From assembly GCF_003589925.1 (NCBI RefSeq), contig NZ_CP032382.1, positions 1,922,001 to 1,986,000 of the forward strand: a DNA stretch of 64,000 nt. Direction: 5' to 3'. Source of the DNA: Chryseolinea soli. Its GTDB lineage: Bacteria > Bacteroidota > Bacteroidia > Cytophagales > Cyclobacteriaceae. Of the stretch, positions 55,667 to 64,000 are shown in pieces. The notes beneath the pieces were generated by a model. That model had not been told where the DNA came from. It ran no database searches and saw only the letters and a program-made list of their open reading frames with translations. The position numbers were made by a program, and so were the translations under genes. The first letter of the stretch is position 1; each line of letters begins with the position of its first letter.

Positions 55667-55724
55667 GAGTGTTTCAACTTTGAATGATATTGTTGCGTTT
55701 TTGATCATATAAATACTATTGGTT

Positions 55725-58700
55725 ATGGGAGCAGGAGTGGAGCGCATTCATGAAAAGATAGGGTCATTCAAGAAAAAGTACTACCTCAACATTTTTGTGC
55801 GGGGTGCTATTCTCACCTTGTCGATTCTCATCTCGTATTTTCTTATTGCCGTTTTGCTGGAGTACAATCTCTGGCTTGGGCCCGTAGCACGCTTCTCGAT
55901 ATTCCTGGCTTTTTTTGCCGTGGTTGTTTTTTGCCTTTACCGGTTTTTGAAAGATCCGTTGAGATGGTGGTTTGCCAAGCAGGGTCTTTCCGAGGAACAA
56001 AGTGCCCAGGTGATCGGAAAACACACACCCACTGTGAAGGACGGGTTGCTCAACCTCATCCAACTCTCGGCTACGCAAAAAGATTCTGCCTTGGCCTACG
56101 CCAGCGTCGAACAGAAGTCCAGGGAATTTGAGTCGGTTTCGTTCGATAGCTTTATCGATCTGCAGCAAAACAAGCAGTATGTCAAATACCTCATTGTGCC
56201 CTTGTTGGTCATCGTCGGTATCATCGCCATCAACCGGAGCATCCTCACGCAAAGCACCGAACGGATCGTCCACTTCACCCGCCACTATTCTCCACAGGCT
56301 CCCTTCAAATTTTTAGTCGATCCCGAATCCCTCACGGCATTTCACAATGAAAAGCTGACGCTGAACGTGCAACTGCAAGGGGAGGCGTTGCCGGAAAGTG
56401 TCTACCTGCTTTCGGGAAACCAACGGCTGAAGCTGGAGCATCTGTCGGCGGACCAATATTCCTATGCCTTTGAAAATGTTCAGGAAGCATTCGATCTTCA
56501 ATTTGAGGCGGCCGGATTTTTCTCGGACGTCTATCACGTAACGGTTTCAAGCCGGCCGGAACTTTCGAACTTTAGTGTCGACCTCCAGTACCCGCGCTAC
56601 CTGCAACGGAAGAATGAACGGCTCAACAACGCAGGAAATCTGGAAGTGCCCGAAGGCACGGTGGTGAGGTGGAACCTGGCAACCCGCGACGCACAGCAAG
56701 CCAGTATTCTTTTTTCTTCCGAGAAAACACCGTTCGACATGCAGGAGTCCGGCGGCGATCTGTTTAGCTACGGAAAAGAATTCAGGAATCCCGATCAGTA
56801 TGAGATCATCCTGAAAAACAACAAAACGAAAAATAAGGAACGCATCGCCTATCATGTGGATGTGATCAAAGACGAGTTTCCCAAAATCCAGGTCAACAAT
56901 TTCAAAGACTCGGTGCTCTATAAAATGGTGGTGCTGAGCGGACTTGTCGGCGACGACTACGGCGTAAGCCAATTGGCACTTCATTTCAAGATCAGAAATG
57001 AAAATCAAAAAGAGATTCTCAGCGAAACGTCCAACATTCCGATAGCTAAAAATCAGTTACAACAAAGCTTCTTCCATCCCTGGCGGCTGGACTCCCTCGA
57101 TCTGAAGCCCGGCAACCAGTTGGAGTATTACCTCGAGGTTTGGGATAACGACGGGGTGAACGGAAGAAAGTCGACCAAGACCGCGCGCTACACCTTCATG
57201 GTTCCTTCGGAAGACAACCTGGTGGCCGAGATCAAAAGCTCACAAAATAAAACACAACAGAAGATCGACCAGAGCGCCGGCAAAGCCAACAAGCTTCATG
57301 AAAAAGTACAAGAGGCCAACCAAAAGCTGAAAGGCAAACAAAGCCTCGACTGGCAAGACAAGAAAATGCTGGAAGACATCGTGGACCAAAAGCAGGGTCT
57401 CGACAAGCTGGTGGAAGAACTGAAGGAACAGAACAAACTGCTGGAGCAGAAAAAAGAAGCCTTCACCAAACAAGACGAGCGGATCAAAGAAAAGGCCGAG
57501 CAGATCCAAAAGCTGATGAACGAACTGCTGGACGACGAAACCAAGAAGCTGTTCGAAGAACTTCAAAAACTTTTGCAGGAAAACAAAGATGTGTCGCAAA
57601 TCCAGAAGATCCTGGACAAGCTGAACCAGAACACCAACAACCTGGAGAAAGAGCTGGAGCGGACATTGGAATTATTCAAGCAACTGCAATACGAATTCAA
57701 GCTCGACCAGGCCGCCCAGGATCTGAAGAAATCCGTGGAAGAGCAAAAGGCCTTACTGGAGAAAACCGAGGCACTTGAAAAAAATACCGAAGCCAAAGCC
57801 AACAAAGATCAAAAGTCCGATAACAAAAAGGACAAAAATAAAGAGGCCAAAAACCAGGACTCCAAGAATCAGGACAATAAAAACCAGGACGGAAAAGATC
57901 AGGACGGCAAGGACAAGGACGGTAAAAACCAAGACAGCAAGAACCAAGACAGCAAGAATCAGGATCAAAAGAACGACGGCGGCCAAAGCAGCGAAAGCCA
58001 GGAGCTGGCCAAAGAGCAGGACAAGCTGAAACAGGATTTCCAGAAAACAGCCGAGCAAATAGAGGAGCTAAAGAAACTGGGCAACGAACTGCAAAAGGAC
58101 GACGACCTGCCGTCCGAAAAATCTTCGGAGGAAGTAGAGCAAGATCAGGAAGAAAGCAAAGACCAACTCGAGCAGGACAGCCCTTCGAAGTCGAAGAGCT
58201 CACAACAAAAAGCCGTTCAAAAAATGCAGAAGATGCAACAGCAGATGGAAGGTGCGCAAGAGGGGATGGCCATAGAAATGGACATGCAAAACCTGGAGGC
58301 ACTCCGGCAGATCATCCACGGCTTGGTAAAACTTTCGTTCGATGAAGAGGGTTTGATGAAAGGATTTAGCGAGCTGAATCAGAACGACCCCAACTTCAAC
58401 ACCATTGCGCAAAAGCAATTGAAGCTCAAGGATGATGCTAAAGTGTTGGAAGACAGTTTGTTAGCTCTTGGAAAGCGCGATCCCTATATGAATTCCATTG
58501 TCACGAAAGAAGTCGGGGACCTGAACGAGCATCTCGATAAAGTGATTGAAGCCAACCGTGAGCGCCGCCGGCCACAGGCCGCCAGCGAAATGCAGATGAC
58601 GATGACGTCCATCAACAACCTGGCGCTTATGCTCGATGATCATTTCGACATGATGACCCAAATGATGCAAAACGCAAAGCCGTCGATGGGCAAGTCGAAA

Positions 58701-59210
58701 AAGAAAGGACAGAAACAGAGCCTCAGTCAGATGCAGCAACAATTGAATCAGAAAATTCAAGAGCTGAAGGGAAGCGGAAAGCAGGGGCGGCAGCTCTCTG
58801 AGGAATTAGCTGAAATGGCAGCAGAGCAAGAGCGCATCCGCAAGGCACTCCAGGAAATGCAGGAAAAGATGAAGGACGGAAAAATGCCGGGTGGCGATCT
58901 GCAGGGCAAGATGGAGCAATCGGAAATGGACCTAGTGAACAAGCAGCTCTCGGAACAGTTGATCAAGCGCCAGCAGGAAATCGTGACGCGATTGCTGGAG
59001 ACCGAGAAGTCGGCGCGCGAACAGGACATGGACGAAGAGCGCAAGGGCGAAACGGCCAAGGACTACGAAAAAGAAATACCCAAGGCCTTTGAAGATTATT
59101 TGCGTCTAAAGGAAAAAGAAGTAGAATTGCTTAAAACAGTGCCACCTAAGCTTTACCCTTATTATAAGAAAGAAGTGAGCGAGTATTTTAAAAGAGTGGG
59201 TGAGCAATAA
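55725..59210 (+). CDS. DUF4175 family large membrane protein
   Basis: The 1161-aa protein has three N-terminal helices (about 23-45, 53-72 and 153-170), a beta-rich extracytoplasmic region (about 190-500), and a huge coiled-coil, charged second half with a low-complexity Lys-Asn-Gln-Asp tract near residue 709. It is built like Bacteroidota DUF4175 proteins, whose role is unknown. ATG 55725 is preferred over the TTG two codons earlier. It precedes the RsbW-like ATPase by 47 nt. Confidence 0.85.
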   Translation: MGAGVERIHEKIGSFKKKYYLNIFVRGAILTLSILISYFLIAVLLEYNLWLGPVARFSIFLAFFAVVVFCLYRFLKDPLRWWFAKQGLSEEQSAQVIGKHTPTVKDGLLNLIQLSATQKDSALAYASVEQKSREFESVSFDSFIDLQQNKQYVKYLIVPLLVIVGIIAINRSILTQSTERIVHFTRHYSPQAPFKFLVDPESLTAFHNEKLTLNVQLQGEALPESVYLLSGNQRLKLEHLSADQYSYAFENVQEAFDLQFEAAGFFSDVYHVTVSSRPELSNFSVDLQYPRYLQRKNERLNNAGNLEVPEGTVVRWNLATRDAQQASILFSSEKTPFDMQESGGDLFSYGKEFRNPDQYEIILKNNKTKNKERIAYHVDVIKDEFPKIQVNNFKDSVLYKMVVLSGLVGDDYGVSQLALHFKIRNENQKEILSETSNIPIAKNQLQQSFFHPWRLDSLDLKPGNQLEYYLEVWDNDGVNGRKSTKTARYTFMVPSEDNLVAEIKSSQNKTQQKIDQSAGKANKLHEKVQEANQKLKGKQSLDWQDKKMLEDIVDQKQGLDKLVEELKEQNKLLEQKKEAFTKQDERIKEKAEQIQKLMNELLDDETKKLFEELQKLLQENKDVSQIQKILDKLNQNTNNLEKELERTLELFKQLQYEFKLDQAAQDLKKSVEEQKALLEKTEALEKNTEAKANKDQKSDNKKDKNKEAKNQDSKNQDNKNQDGKDQDGKDKDGKNQDSKNQDSKNQDQKNDGGQSSESQELAKEQDKLKQDFQKTAEQIEELKKLGNELQKDDDLPSEKSSEEVEQDQEESKDQLEQDSPSKSKSSQQKAVQKMQKMQQQMEGAQEGMAIEMDMQNLEALRQIIHGLVKLSFDEEGLMKGFSELNQNDPNFNTIAQKQLKLKDDAKVLEDSLLALGKRDPYMNSIVTKEVGDLNEHLDKVIEANRERRRPQAASEMQMTMTSINNLALMLDDHFDMMTQMMQNAKPSMGKSKKKGQKQSLSQMQQQLNQKIQELKGSGKQGRQLSEELAEMAAEQERIRKALQEMQEKMKDGKMPGGDLQGKMEQSEMDLVNKQLSEQLIKRQQEIVTRLLETEKSAREQDMDEERKGETAKDYEKEIPKAFEDYLRLKEKEVELLKTVPPKLYPYYKKEVSEYFKRVGEQ
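57849..57974 (+). repeat. Imperfect 15-nt tandem repeat coding KNQDx units
   Basis: Within the DUF4175 gene, about eight imperfect copies of a 5-codon unit (KNQDS, KNQDN, KNQDG, KDQDG, KDKDG and so on), starting near residue 709. The codons vary between copies, so the tract is not a very recent expansion. Confidence 0.8.
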
Positions 59211-59662: not shown

Positions 59663-60085
59663 ATGTCGTCCATCCGTTTCTTTGAGGAGGACGTCACATT
59701 CCAAATTCCGCATCCGCGGAAGACATCAACCTGGATCAAGTCTGCAATAGCAAAAGAGAAGAGAACGCTCGGTGAGCTGAATTTTATCTTTTGCTCAGAC
59801 AACCACCTTCGCGAGATCAATATCCAGTATCTCAACCACCACACCTTTACCGATATCGTGACCTTCGACACCAGTGAGGTGAAAGGTCAGATCTCCGGCG
59901 ACATCTTTATCAGTATTGACCGGGTACAAGAAAACGCTCAAAAGTTTAAGACCACATTTGATCACGAGCTCCACCGGGTCCTTATTCATGGGGTACTTCA
60001 CTTGGTTGGCTATTCCGACAAGGGAACCGAGAAGAAAGCCACCATGCGCAAAAAAGAGGATGCTTATCTATCTTTGCGGAAGTAA
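59663..60085 (+). CDS. ybeY: rRNA maturation factor YbeY
   Basis: YbeY is a metal-dependent endoribonuclease needed for 16S rRNA 3'-end maturation. The 140-aa protein has His109 and His113 in HGVLHLVGYSDK; the usual third metal ligand, His in GYDH, is replaced by Ser118/Asp119. The change is also seen in relatives of this phylum as far as I recall, so activity may be kept with Asp. It is adjacent to the RsbW-like gene and followed immediately by the parS cluster. Confidence 0.92.
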   Translation: MSSIRFFEEDVTFQIPHPRKTSTWIKSAIAKEKRTLGELNFIFCSDNHLREINIQYLNHHTFTDIVTFDTSEVKGQISGDIFISIDRVQENAQKFKTTFDHELHRVLIHGVLHLVGYSDKGTEKKATMRKKEDAYLSLRK

Positions 60086-60099
60086 GTTCCACGTGGAAC
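60086..60099. promoter_or_regulatory. parS site 1 (GTTCCACGTGGAAC)
   Basis: A perfect 14-bp palindrome matching the ParB-binding consensus GTTnCACGTGnAAC. It starts on the base after the ybeY stop codon. Confidence 0.85.
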
Positions 60100-60130
60100 C
60101 TAATCTTGCCCTTATTGCTTGTGAAGTAGC

Positions 60131-60144
60131 GTTCCACGTGAAAC
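60131..60144. promoter_or_regulatory. parS site 2 (GTTCCACGTGAAAC)
   Basis: Matches the parS consensus, with the T/C choice at position 4 differing between the arms. It lies 45 nt from site 1. Confidence 0.85.
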
Positions 60145-60185
60145 AAATTGTGGAATTGTTGATGGATTTTGTGGGTAAGTATCGG

Positions 60186-60199
60186 GTTCCACGTGAAAC
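60186..60199. promoter_or_regulatory. parS site 3 (GTTCCACGTGAAAC)
   Basis: Identical core to site 2 and 55 nt from it. It lies 18 nt before the mnmG start. Confidence 0.85.
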
Positions 60200-60217: not shown

Positions 60218-62080
60218 ATGTTTCAGGAATACGATGTAATTGTGGTGGGGGCAGGCCATGCGGGCTGCGAAGCGGCAGCAGCCGCGGCCAGTATGGGGTC
60301 GAAGACTCTACTGGTGACCATGAATATGAATACGATCGCCCAGATGTCGTGCAACCCCGCTATGGGCGGGGTGGCCAAGGGTCAAATCGTGAGAGAAATA
60401 GATGCCTTGGGGGGAATGTCTGGGATTGTGTCCGATAAGTCCATGATCCAGTTCAGAATGCTGAATCGATCGAAGGGTCCCGCTATGTGGAGCCCCAGAA
60501 CTCAGAACGACCGGATGAGATTCTCCGAAGAGTGGAGACTGGCCCTGGAGCGAACCCCGAATCTTGATTTCTGGCAGGAAATGGTCAAAGAGATCCTGGT
60601 GGAGAACGGCAAAGCAGTAGGAGTGAAGACTGCCCTTGGACTGGACATCCGGGCTAAGGCTGTTGTCCTCACAAATGGCACTTTCCTGAATGGAAAGATC
60701 CATATCGGGGAAAAGAACTTCGGAGGAGGCCGTACAGCCGAAAAATCGGCCACAGGATTGACCGAACAACTCATTACCCTGGGATTTGAAGCGGGAAGAA
60801 TGAAAACAGGCACGCCTCCCCGTGTAGACGGCAGAAGCCTCGACTATTCCAAGATGGAAGAACAGCCTGGGGACGCAGCGCCCGGAAAGTTCTCCTATTC
60901 CGACACTCAGCCCCTTCAAAAACAAATCAGTTGCTGGATCACCTATACCAACGACACTGTCCACAAGGAACTTCAAAAAGGGTTTGAGAAATCGCCAATG
61001 TTTCAGGGCCGAATCAAAGGTTTGGGGCCCCGGTATTGTCCTTCCATTGAGGATAAGATAAACCGGTTCGCTGAAAGGGACCGTCATCAGATCTTCGTTG
61101 AGCCTGAGGGATGGAACACGGTGGAGATCTATGTGAATGGCTTTTCCACGTCCCTACCCGAAGATGTCCAATACAAAGCGCTTACCCGCATCCCTGGTTT
61201 TGAAAAGGCAAAGATGTTCCGGCCAGGATATGCTATTGAATACGATTTCTTTCCGCCCACCCAGCTAAGTCTGAGCCTGGAGACCCAACTGATTCAAAAC
61301 CTGTACTTCGCGGGACAGATCAACGGCACCACCGGCTATGAAGAGGCAGCCTGTCAAGGGCTCATGGCAGGCATCAATGCTCACCAGAAAGTTCATGGAA
61401 AAGACCCCTTCATATTGAAACGATCCGATGCCTATATCGGCGTATTGATAGATGACCTTGTTAGCAAGGGTACACAGGAGCCCTATCGGATGTTTACATC
61501 CCGGGCTGAGTATCGTATCCTTCTCCGCCAGGACAATGCCGACATCCGGCTAACGGAGCTTGGCCATTCCATTGGACTTGCCAGCGACGAACGAAACGAC
61601 AAGGTTCTGGCCAAGAAACGAGACGTGGAAGCTCTCACTAATGAGCTCAACAAGACAAAGCTCGAGCCCGATATGATAAACGAAGGATTGGAAGGACTCC
61701 AAACCTCGGCCATTCGGGAAAAAGTCGCCGCAAGCCATCTGCTTAAACGGCCACAAATCGACGTTGCCTCCTTGAAAAGCATAAATGCCGATCTCGAAAA
61801 GCTTCTGAATAAATACTCCATTGAAGTACAAGAGCAGGCCGAGATCAATATCAAATACGATAGTTATATCGAGCGGGAGGAACAACTGGTACAAAAGCTT
61901 GGCAACCTTGAGAACTTCAAGATCCGAACCGACTTCGATTATGACCGTGTGAAAGCCTTGTCATCGGAAGCCCGCGAGAAATTAAAGCGAATAAAACCCG
62001 AAACCGTTGGGCAGGCATCGCGCATTAGCGGCGTCTCTCCGGCCGACGTTTCTGTACTTACAATCTATATGGGTAAATGA
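60218..62080 (+). CDS. mnmG: tRNA uridine-5-carboxymethylaminomethyl modification enzyme MnmG
   Basis: MnmG (GidA), with MnmE, installs the cmnm5 group on wobble U34 of several tRNAs. The 620-aa protein has the FAD-binding GAGHAGCEAA (11-20), the catalytic-region CNPAMGGVAKGQ segment, and the C-terminal helical domain. The start at 60218 puts the Rossmann fold at the N-terminus. mnmG is often origin-proximal, which fits the parS sites just upstream. Its stop overlaps the next start by ATGA. Confidence 0.96.
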   Translation: MFQEYDVIVVGAGHAGCEAAAAAASMGSKTLLVTMNMNTIAQMSCNPAMGGVAKGQIVREIDALGGMSGIVSDKSMIQFRMLNRSKGPAMWSPRTQNDRMRFSEEWRLALERTPNLDFWQEMVKEILVENGKAVGVKTALGLDIRAKAVVLTNGTFLNGKIHIGEKNFGGGRTAEKSATGLTEQLITLGFEAGRMKTGTPPRVDGRSLDYSKMEEQPGDAAPGKFSYSDTQPLQKQISCWITYTNDTVHKELQKGFEKSPMFQGRIKGLGPRYCPSIEDKINRFAERDRHQIFVEPEGWNTVEIYVNGFSTSLPEDVQYKALTRIPGFEKAKMFRPGYAIEYDFFPPTQLSLSLETQLIQNLYFAGQINGTTGYEEAACQGLMAGINAHQKVHGKDPFILKRSDAYIGVLIDDLVSKGTQEPYRMFTSRAEYRILLRQDNADIRLTELGHSIGLASDERNDKVLAKKRDVEALTNELNKTKLEPDMINEGLEGLQTSAIREKVAASHLLKRPQIDVASLKSINADLEKLLNKYSIEVQEQAEINIKYDSYIEREEQLVQKLGNLENFKIRTDFDYDRVKALSSEAREKLKRIKPETVGQASRISGVSPADVSVLTIYMGK

Positions 62081-62967
62081 AAGAATTGAAGCGCTGCCCC
62101 GTCTGCCAAAGTATCTCGTTCCAAAAATTTATTACCGCTAAAGACTACACCGTTTCACGGGAAACATTTGACCTGGTCAAATGCGACAACTGTGGGTTTG
62201 TCTTCACCAATCCCATTCCCGATCCTGAGCGGTTGGGAGACTATTACCTTTCCGACGATTACATCTCTCACTCAAAAAAGGCGACAGGCCTGATCGACAA
62301 GATCTATGTCGTGGCCAGAAGCTTCACATTGAAATGGAAGCTGGATCTGATCCGGAAATACACCGGGAACCTAGACAAAACAATTCTCGACTACGGCTGT
62401 GGCACCGGCGACTTCCTGAAAGCCTGCAAAGAAAATGGCTGGGCCGTAACTGGCGTCGAGCCTTCGGAAAAGGCCAGGCAGTTGGCAAGTGATCAGACTC
62501 ACAAAAAAATCGCTGCGTCGTTGAAGGATGTGGAAACAAAGGAATTCAATACCATCACCTTATGGCACGTGCTTGAGCACATCGAGGATCTGAACAATAC
62601 GCTTCAGCAATTAAAAAACAAGCTCAGCCCGAACGGCACTCTGCTAATCGCAGTTCCCAATCATGCTGCCTGGGACGGAAGTCACTATGGACAATATTGG
62701 GCTGGCTATGATGTTCCCCGGCATCTCTGGCATTTCACCCAAGAAACCATGAAGACCTTGTTGGCGAACAACCACCTTAAACTTGACGCCATCGTGCCCA
62801 TGAAACTTGACGCCTACTACATTAGCTTGCTGAGCGAAAAATATAAAGCCAACGGTAAGGCTGGGGTGCCTGGCATGATAATCGCAGCCGTCAACGGGCT
62901 TCGGTCGAACCTGAACGCCCGGAAAAACAAAAACTATTCGAGCCTTATTTATATTGTGAGAAAATGA
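62077..62967 (+). CDS. SAM-dependent methyltransferase with zinc ribbon
   Basis: The 296-aa protein has an N-terminal zinc ribbon (Cys7, 10, 36, 39) and a class I methyltransferase fold with motif I DYGCGTGDF (105-113), followed by a WHVLEH segment. This architecture resembles methyltransferases that act on lipids or sugars, but the substrate is unknown. It overlaps both mnmG and the following gene by 4 nt (ATGA), giving a coupled three-gene unit. A one-mismatch parS-like sequence lies near its start. Confidence 0.87.
   Translation: MKELKRCPVCQSISFQKFITAKDYTVSRETFDLVKCDNCGFVFTNPIPDPERLGDYYLSDDYISHSKKATGLIDKIYVVARSFTLKWKLDLIRKYTGNLDKTILDYGCGTGDFLKACKENGWAVTGVEPSEKARQLASDQTHKKIAASLKDVETKEFNTITLWHVLEHIEDLNNTLQQLKNKLSPNGTLLIAVPNHAAWDGSHYGQYWAGYDVPRHLWHFTQETMKTLLANNHLKLDAIVPMKLDAYYISLLSEKYKANGKAGVPGMIIAAVNGLRSNLNARKNKNYSSLIYIVRK
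62152..62165. promoter_or_regulatory. Degenerate parS-like site (GTTTCACGGGAAAC)
   Basis: One mismatch from parS GTTTCACGTGAAAC, located inside the methyltransferase gene about 2 kb from the main cluster. It may be a weaker ParB site or chance. Confidence 0.5.
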
Positions 62968-64000
62968 ATCTCCGAAAACAACTTCATTGGCTGATCTATC
63001 CATTGTTCTTTCTGGCGTGCGCCCGGCAAACTACTCCCACGGGTGGACCGAAAGACACGTTGGCCCCAGTGATGACCAATAGCCTTCCCAAACAAGGGCA
63101 AATCAAATTCCGGGGAAAAAGTGTAGAACTTACATTTAATGAGGCAATTCAGGTCAACAATCCGAAAGAGCAAATCATCATCATTCCGTCGGTTGGCAAA
63201 GACTTCGAGGCAACTGCCAAGAAAAATACGGTCGTAGTAACGTTCAAAAATTACCTCCAGGACAGCACTACCTACTCCCTCAATTTCCGCGAAAGTGTGC
63301 AGGATCTCACGGAAAAAAATCCAGCCAAAAATCTGAAGCTCGCCTTTAGTACCGGCGACTATATAGACTCGTTATCTATCGACGGCTACATCTACGATCC
63401 CCTCAAAGGAAAAGAAAGCAAGGATGCCACGGTTGCGCTTTTTCAGTCAGACACCTTCAACATCTTTAAACATAAACCGGTCTACCTCACCAAGACCAAT
63501 GAAAAGGGCGAATACATAATCGAGAATCTAAAACCCGGCGATTATTATCTATACGCCATGGAAGACAAGAACAAAAATCTCGTAGTCGACAGTAAATCAG
63601 AGACTTACGGATTCATTGCTCAAAAGATCACACTTACCGAAAACATCAAAAAGGAGGACATACCCGTCATTAAATTAGACACCCGGTCGCTAAAGCTCAC
63701 AAATTCAAGGCCTTACAATACCTATTTCAATATCAAAACCTCTAAAAACCTCGACCACTATCGCATTATCCCAACTGAGGGCGAAATTCTGCTCTCTGGG
63801 TTTGCAGAGGACCAAAGCAACATTCGCGTTTACAACACCATCGAAGACAAGGACAGCCTGGCGGTACGGTTCAACGCGTACGATAGCGTGAACAATTCCA
63901 TCGACACCACGATATACGTCAAATTCAGTAACCGCGAAGTGAAGAAGGACCCCTTCAAGGCAACAAGCTCCCAATTCAAAGTAATCGGAACAAAAGGACT
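62964..64000 (+). CDS. Ig-like domain lipoprotein (cut off by the window end)
   Basis: The visible 345 residues begin with a lipoprotein-like signal (Cys19 in FFLACARQ), then TPTGGPKDT, a segment typical of the Bacteroidota lipoproteins with a bacterial Ig-like (Big_5) domain at about 30-130. A carboxypeptidase-regulatory-like beta domain (LKPGDYYLYAMEDKNKNL) follows. The stop codon lies beyond 64000. Its start overlaps the methyltransferase stop by 4 nt (ATGA). It is probably an outer-membrane or surface-exposed binding protein. Confidence 0.82.
   Translation, partial: MNLRKQLHWLIYPLFFLACARQTTPTGGPKDTLAPVMTNSLPKQGQIKFRGKSVELTFNEAIQVNNPKEQIIIIPSVGKDFEATAKKNTVVVTFKNYLQDSTTYSLNFRESVQDLTEKNPAKNLKLAFSTGDYIDSLSIDGYIYDPLKGKESKDATVALFQSDTFNIFKHKPVYLTKTNEKGEYIIENLKPGDYYLYAMEDKNKNLVVDSKSETYGFIAQKITLTENIKKEDIPVIKLDTRSLKLTNSRPYNTYFNIKTSKNLDHYRIIPTEGEILLSGFAEDQSNIRVYNTIEDKDSLAVRFNAYDSVNNSIDTTIYVKFSNREVKKDPFKATSSQFKVIGTKG

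Follow-up and report, generated by a model that had tools for sequence, protein, structure and literature searches.

Introduction

Chromosomal ParABS systems with parS sites of the Spo0J/ParB type have been reviewed (excerpts of PMC7333895). In 12 mouse gut strains, including Bacteroides caecimuris and Muribaculum intestinale, parS clusters were located at the origin determined by Hi-C, dnaA was no systematic marker of the origin, and these two named strains, both Bacteroidetes, were without known condensin (excerpts of PMC10197239). On the evidence of the same excerpts, origin-located parS clusters are already known, including those of two Bacteroidetes (PMC10197239). The centromere of Caulobacter is bound by DnaA (Mera et al. 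2014, as described in excerpts of PMC6399470).

In this study, we analyzed a window, i.e., the whole stretch of 64,000 nucleotides at positions 1,922,001–1,986,000 of the 8,241,389-bp single contig of Chryseolinea soli, which contains a parS cluster upstream of mnmG. The locus agrees with the reviewed systems, as far as the excerpts of PMC7333895 go, in the palindrome, in its clustering near the origin, and in that ParA, ParB, and SMC are encoded in the genome, whereas parAB lies almost opposite parS on this chromosome. As in the gut strains, a parS cluster and GC skew mark the origin; unlike the two gut Bacteroidetes without known condensin, this genome encodes a full SMC (compared with excerpts of PMC10197239, in which no mention was found of mnmG linkage, DnaA-box spacing, or the position of parAB). 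Like Caulobacter, the locus has DnaA-box-like sequences within an origin-proximal parS cluster, whereas the phylum and the sequence are different and DnaA binding is here guessed from motifs (compared with excerpts of PMC6399470). With respect to the known origin gene set, gidA/mnmG is beside the origin, whereas the members parB (with parA) and dnaA lie elsewhere. This map layout, with parS by the origin and parAB far off, is unusual.

A fixed parS–mnmG–oriC unit, unlinked parAB in Bacteroidota, and a DnaA-box-like triplet embedded between parS sites were not found in the literature searched, which consisted of partial texts including, among the matches listed, PMC13342612, PMC2099444, PMC7022226, PMC7333895, PMC7383237, PMC6399470, and PMC10197239, with subscription journals mostly outside it. 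For the unit and the unlinked parAB, this absence is a weak sign of novelty.

Results and Discussion

Three exact sites between ybeY and mnmG

The sites and the two genes that enclose them are as follows.
59663–60085, plus strand: ybeY (endoribonuclease; Pfam PF02130, 97 bits)
60086–60099, no strand assigned: parS1, GTTCCACGTGGAAC, perfect palindrome, exact match
60131–60144, plus strand: parS2, GTTCCACGTGAAAC, exact match
60186–60199, plus strand: parS3, GTTCCACGTGAAAC, exact match with the same letters as parS2
60218–62080, plus strand: mnmG/gidA, the conserved parS neighbor (Pfam PF01134, 552 bits)

The gap from the ybeY stop codon (60085) to the mnmG ATG (60218) is 132 bp, of which parS1–3 span 114 bp, and parS1 starts on the very next base after the stop codon. 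The first-pass annotation had described three 14-bp sites of the ParB consensus within 114 bp, one of them a perfect palindrome and the other two identical, in a 132-bp gap. All three proved to be exact, with positions and letters as it gave them, and the palindrome, the identical pair, and the gap were also borne out. An even scatter of the motif round the chromosome, which it had raised as a possible objection, was not observed: when the whole 8,241,389-bp contig was scanned for the consensus GTTNCACGTGNAAC with the same pattern read backwards as the control, parS1–3 were the only three exact matches, all in this gap, and the control gave one.

When one mismatch was allowed, eight further sites spread round the chromosome were added. 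This dispersal would suit the explanation that short palindromes happened to fall in the gap, although the total of 11 sites was smaller than that of the backward control (31). However, the expected number of exact matches under an order-1 Markov model of the window was 0.004 per 64 kb and only 8.5e-6 per 132 bp, and the conservation of the sites among relatives is the decisive evidence against chance, which we consider to have a negligible probability. In an alignment of nine sequences, an exact site was present at the parS1 position in seven (missing in G003 and G004), parS2 was invariant outside its two degenerate positions, and parS3 was kept in all but G005, where it is lost.

One of the eight one-mismatch sites is found in the window, 2 kb from the cluster, inside the gene following mnmG.
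62077–62967, plus strand: class I SAM methyltransferase gene (Pfam PF13489), between mnmG and the candidate oriC
62152–62165, plus strand: parS-like sequence GTTTCACGGGAAAC with one mismatch, within the methyltransferase coding sequence

This site was considered as a fourth parS and rejected. A methyltransferase homologue covering it was present in 74 of 80 named loci (best 80 of 590; G001 and G002 were left out, their loci stopping within mnmG), and only two of these 74 relatives had a site with at most one mismatch, the other 72 having at least four. It is probably a coding coincidence of a VS-x-E-T peptide.

Conservation of the arrangement in relatives

Exact sites were detected in 35 of 39 genomes (its own and those of relatives), 28 of which had two or three, six had one, and one (G007) had four, and they were absent from the other four as well as from three of 19 chosen genomes. 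In 34 of the 35 genomes all sites were on the same contig, the exception being G023 with its third site on a different contig. Multiple sites spanned less than 600 bp save in G035 (2.8 kb) and G036 (27.5 kb).

The same picture was examined from the side of mnmG using 80 named loci (the best 80 of 590 confirmed), in which the nearest relatives were a MAG labelled Bacteroides (84%), Ohtaekwangia, Dawidia, and Chryseosolibacter. An exact site was located within 1 kb upstream of mnmG in 55 of these best 80 of 590. Among the remaining 25, 14 had a one-mismatch site (11 Dyadobacter, Fibrella, Fibrivirga, and Siphonobacter), and no upstream site, even with one mismatch, was found in 11 (10 Hymenobacter and the MAG L132). 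Conversely, mnmG was within 1 kb of parS in all 41 parS loci examined (L166–L205 and L001, from 46 genomes with exact sites; G026, G027, G029, G031, and G037 were not included), with the site 0.9 kb beyond the mnmG end in L193 and within or just downstream of mnmG in L195 and L200–L202. The named and unnamed locus sets overlap in genomes and are thus not independent.

Downstream of mnmG, at least three DnaA boxes in 300 bp were found in 64 of 78 named loci (those among the best 80 of 590 whose downstream sequence extended to 5 kb or more), and the other 14 had no such cluster. In 62 of the 78, the densest cluster began 4.0–6.0 kb from the mnmG start on its downstream side, with a median of 4.5 kb; this band was chosen after the clusters had been inspected. 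In a shuffle control (40 loci, three times each), any cluster of at least three boxes in 300 bp was observed in only 1 of 120. Taken together, a unit of parS, mnmG, and, after approximately 4.5 kb, oriC is conserved in the related genomes, with parAB and dnaA mostly elsewhere.

Two groups of relatives showed variations of this arrangement. In 11 Dyadobacter loci (L118, L119, L121, L122, L123, L127, L128, L129, L133, L134, and L136), TTTCCACGTGGAAC or ATTCCACGTGGAAC replaces the exact parS, and the same alternatives are upstream of mnmG in the Fibrivirga and Fibrella loci (L130 and L137), which are without exact parS; these forms might represent the drift of one half-site, tracking a change of ParB. 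In the 10 Hymenobacter loci (L139, L141, L143, L146, L147, L152, L153, L156, L157, and L162), no site with up to one mismatch was found in about 12 kb, and nine of them had a cluster of at least five DnaA boxes approximately 5.0–5.9 kb downstream of the mnmG start.

GC skew and DnaA boxes near the probable origin

GC skew was sampled in 83 stretches of 20 kb (three from the window), amounting to 1.66 Mb or about 20% of the genome, and the signal in this sample was weak. The sampled cumulative skew had its minimum at the right end of the window, where the value changed from −0.028 in the last window piece to +0.052 in the next. The window pieces add weight to this minimum, which without them lay at 1.874–1.986 Mb. 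On a fine scale, the minimum was at 1,987,073 of the genome (84 kb examined).

In the same 84 kb, 24 DnaA boxes with up to one mismatch were found, with one marked cluster just beyond the window.
62964–64000, plus strand: start of a gene, read by eye from the sequence and the ORF list, which continues beyond the window and stops shortly before the candidate oriC
L025:704–955, window-equivalent 64704–64955: candidate oriC, a 252-bp gap between ORFs with the DnaA-box cluster

This cluster consists of five boxes at 1,986,687–1,986,954 (about 270 bp) and is the densest in the 1.66 Mb sampled. Each of the five has one mismatch and none is exact; these 84 kb contain a single exact box, at 2,001,757. 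The cluster is 0.69–0.95 kb past the window end and 4.6 kb from parS1. It coincides with an intergenic region and has the skew minimum close by, and L025:704–955 is likely to be oriC. The parS cluster is near this likely origin, with the skew minimum and the DnaA boxes about 4.6–5 kb away; the earlier suggestion that the right end of the window is near the origin is supported by the sampled skew minimum and the box cluster.

In two related genomes, the skew and the box cluster were compared with the position of parS. G028 had a 13-box cluster approximately 4.6–4.9 kb from parS, and its sampled skew minimum was at about 2.25–2.70 Mb, more than 1 Mb from parS at 3.67 Mb, a mismatch that might be due to a recent inversion or to an error in the assembly. 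G017 had a seven-box cluster approximately 4.0–4.3 kb from parS, and its sampled minimum was at 2.20 Mb (cumulative −0.280) versus −0.271 at the parS stretch (1.75 Mb).

The sampled skew maximum was broad, extending over about 5.9–7.1 Mb; it peaked at 6.39 Mb and dipped at 6.70 Mb, and therefore the terminus was not sharply placed. A search for the terminus using a dif-like pattern of presumed form gave 29 matches (up to three mismatches, both strands) versus 25 for the control, with no clear site.

ParB, SMC, and DnaA and their map positions

The genome had one ParB_N match, at 6.043 Mb, in a protein that also has the ParB HTH and dimerization domains, and its gene adjoins that of a ParA-type ATPase. 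The HTH gave a gapless alignment with B. subtilis Spo0J and with another solved ParB family protein. R173 and G201 are conserved in all extant ParB, and S172 is listed as a conserved contact (excerpts of PMC7383237). With positions counted by hand, Arg and Gly are retained at the places corresponding to R173 and G201, and Asn, Tyr, and Lys occupy those of S172, T179, and A184, respectively; by the former two the protein belongs to the ParB proteins cognate to this type of parS, despite the Asn and Lys. SMC is encoded at 6.81 Mb (1056 bits versus a cut-off of 567). As a separate observation, a DUF5683 gene (L004:364–963) directly follows parB.

A location of oriC next to dnaA is common but not universal. 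The first-pass annotation had proposed comparing the sites with parA/parB and dnaA, and neither is near them: the parAB operon is not linked to parS and oriC, parB being 4.06 Mb from parS, i.e., 0.493 of the circumference and nearly antipodal, and dnaA, at 279 kb, is 1.70 Mb from parS and not beside oriC. Such distances are common in the related genomes rather than a refutation of the sites. The layout was compared in 15 single-contig genomes (12 plus G017, G028, and G033), 12 of which had exact sites; G267, G109, and G132 (single contig, without an exact site) and five multi-contig genomes were left out, and chromosome sizes were rounded to 0.1 Mb except for the window genome. In 11 of the 12 with exact sites, the parS–parB distance exceeded 0.2 of the circumference, and dnaA was likewise this far from parS in 11 of the 12, three of them barely (0.204–0.214). 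G073 was the exception for both genes, and the window genome was the extreme (0.493). In the multi-contig genomes G018, G069, G208, and G226, parS and parB were on the same contig, 1.25, 0.73, 2.36, and 0.58 Mb apart, respectively.

The mean parS–parB distance in the 12 single-contig genomes was 0.32 (uniform expectation, 0.25; Kolmogorov–Smirnov p = 0.04), which is weak evidence that parB tends to lie away from the origin in the related genomes. A rule placing parAB at the terminus was rejected, the distances being too variable (0.08–0.49) for a fixed terminal place.

With respect to SMC, no match above the curated cut-off was found in 8 of 13 single-contig genomes, in which up to 26 candidates per genome were scored (G152, G167, G180, G198, G247, G269, G271, and G267). 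Seven of these eight have exact parS and ParB.

Proposed centromere function

We propose, with a probability of roughly 0.93, that the three sites serve as the centromere (parS) of the chromosome in a ParABS system. ParB would be made from the single parAB operon found 4.06 Mb away, load on parS1–3, spread across the flanking DNA, and work with ParA and SMC. Replication would start at oriC, about 4.6 kb from parS and just past the window, and the origin region would be the first to be segregated thereafter. In this proposal, binding, spreading, and segregation at parS1–3 are inferred from the known ParABS systems, the observed part being the sites and their uniqueness, the sampled skew minimum, the DnaA-box cluster, and the genes for ParA, ParB, and SMC. 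Since the parS–mnmG–oriC unit is conserved in related genomes while parAB mostly lies elsewhere, ParB would act on a distant site.

These findings suggest a simple guide to the origin in this group, namely parS beside mnmG and DnaA boxes that follow the mnmG start at a distance of approximately 4.5 kb, whereas the position of dnaA or parAB is untrustworthy as a guide. The centromere stays by the origin and the genes for its proteins can be almost anywhere, and whether the position of parAB matters becomes testable.

A DnaA-box-like triplet in the parS2–parS3 spacer

The spacer between parS2 and parS3 contains a further element.
60149–60178, minus strand: DnaA-box-like TGTGG triplet between parS2 and parS3, in a conserved spacer

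Only one of the three repeats, the last 9-mer TGTGGGTAA (60170–60178), is within one mismatch of the DnaA box. The pattern of the genus is AATTGTGGAA-TGTnGATGnA-TTTTGTGGGTAA or near it. The identity of the parS2–parS3 spacer to that of the window was 0.93, 0.76, 0.76, and 0.72 in G001, L086, L087, and L088, respectively, and the corresponding values for the parS1–parS2 spacer were 0.47, 0.48, 0.55, and 0.47. In the closest relative (G002, with a ParB 97% identical), the values were 0.95 versus 0.84. With up to two mismatches, the pattern occurred once each in 4 of 12 genomes, always at this place, and never backwards. G003 has the triplet with a one-base deletion and G005 a decayed form, and L089 is without it. 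Between the parS sites of L090 and L109 there is an exact DnaA box TGTGGATAA close to TTGTGGAATTGTGGAA. Most substitutions altered the amino acid in the reading frame that overlaps the spacer, and therefore a peptide encoded in the spacer is unlikely.

DnaA binding is our best guess for the role of the triplet. We tentatively suggest that it could be a DnaA-binding element in the centromere, although we consider this rather doubtful; DnaA would then contact the centromere as well as oriC 4.6 kb off and couple the starts of replication and segregation, by a logic like that of Caulobacter that would have arisen separately in Bacteroidota, and with parAB replicating late. This putative element is the newest part of the findings. 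The triplet might instead be a second DnaA-box cluster of oriC, so that parS1–3 and the triplet would belong to one bipartite origin with initiation at or next to parS. Its conservation within the genus and in some close relatives is compatible with such an origin, as is the 9-mer TGTGGGTAA, which also occurs, reversed, in the candidate oriC. However, this 9-mer is not rare (11 occurrences in the 1.66 Mb sample), two of the three repeats in the window are more than one mismatch from the DnaA box, and most named relatives are without the triplet between their parS sites, yet the downstream box cluster persists. Hence, initiation at parS appears improbable, more so than a DnaA-binding element within a centromere.

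Possible promoter element, mnmG leader, and neighboring sequence

An element preceding parS1 may bear on the transcription of mnmG.
60069–60076, plus strand: TATCTTTG, a TAnnTTTG match inside the 3′ end of ybeY, before parS1

TAnnTTTG is the consensus of the −7 promoter element of Bacteroidota. In 33 of 67 relatives, TANNTTTG was present no more than 70 bp ahead of the first parS-type site, whereas control segments predicted 1.2; parS-type sites were here those with G, T, or A as the first base within 400 bp of mnmG, and loci with a short upstream region were dropped. The element is possibly the mnmG promoter, in which case the parS sites would be at the start of the transcript. From its position before the sites, ParB bound there may influence the transcription of mnmG.

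This position would put the sites in the 5′ leader, and the palindromes could then be primarily an element tuning mnmG expression, as RNA hairpins or a repressor target, with centromere use secondary or absent. The leader indeed folded better than its shuffles (z −4.07, with none of 200 equal). However, palindromes fold by construction, so the z-score cannot discriminate between the two uses. Moreover, site number and spacing differ among relatives while the 14-bp sequence remains exact, exact sites are inside or downstream of mnmG in five relatives (L193, L195, and L200–L202), and the motif is the known ParB consensus in a genome that encodes ParB. The RNA-leader explanation was rejected on the guaranteed folding and on the relatives with sites outside the leader, and a primary role in mnmG expression is very unlikely compared with that as a centromere.

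Upstream of ybeY, the predicted product of the ORF at 55719–59210 is a long protein whose middle is strongly repetitive and rich in K/N/Q/D, and the local AT skew at 57697–58302 was about +0.5.
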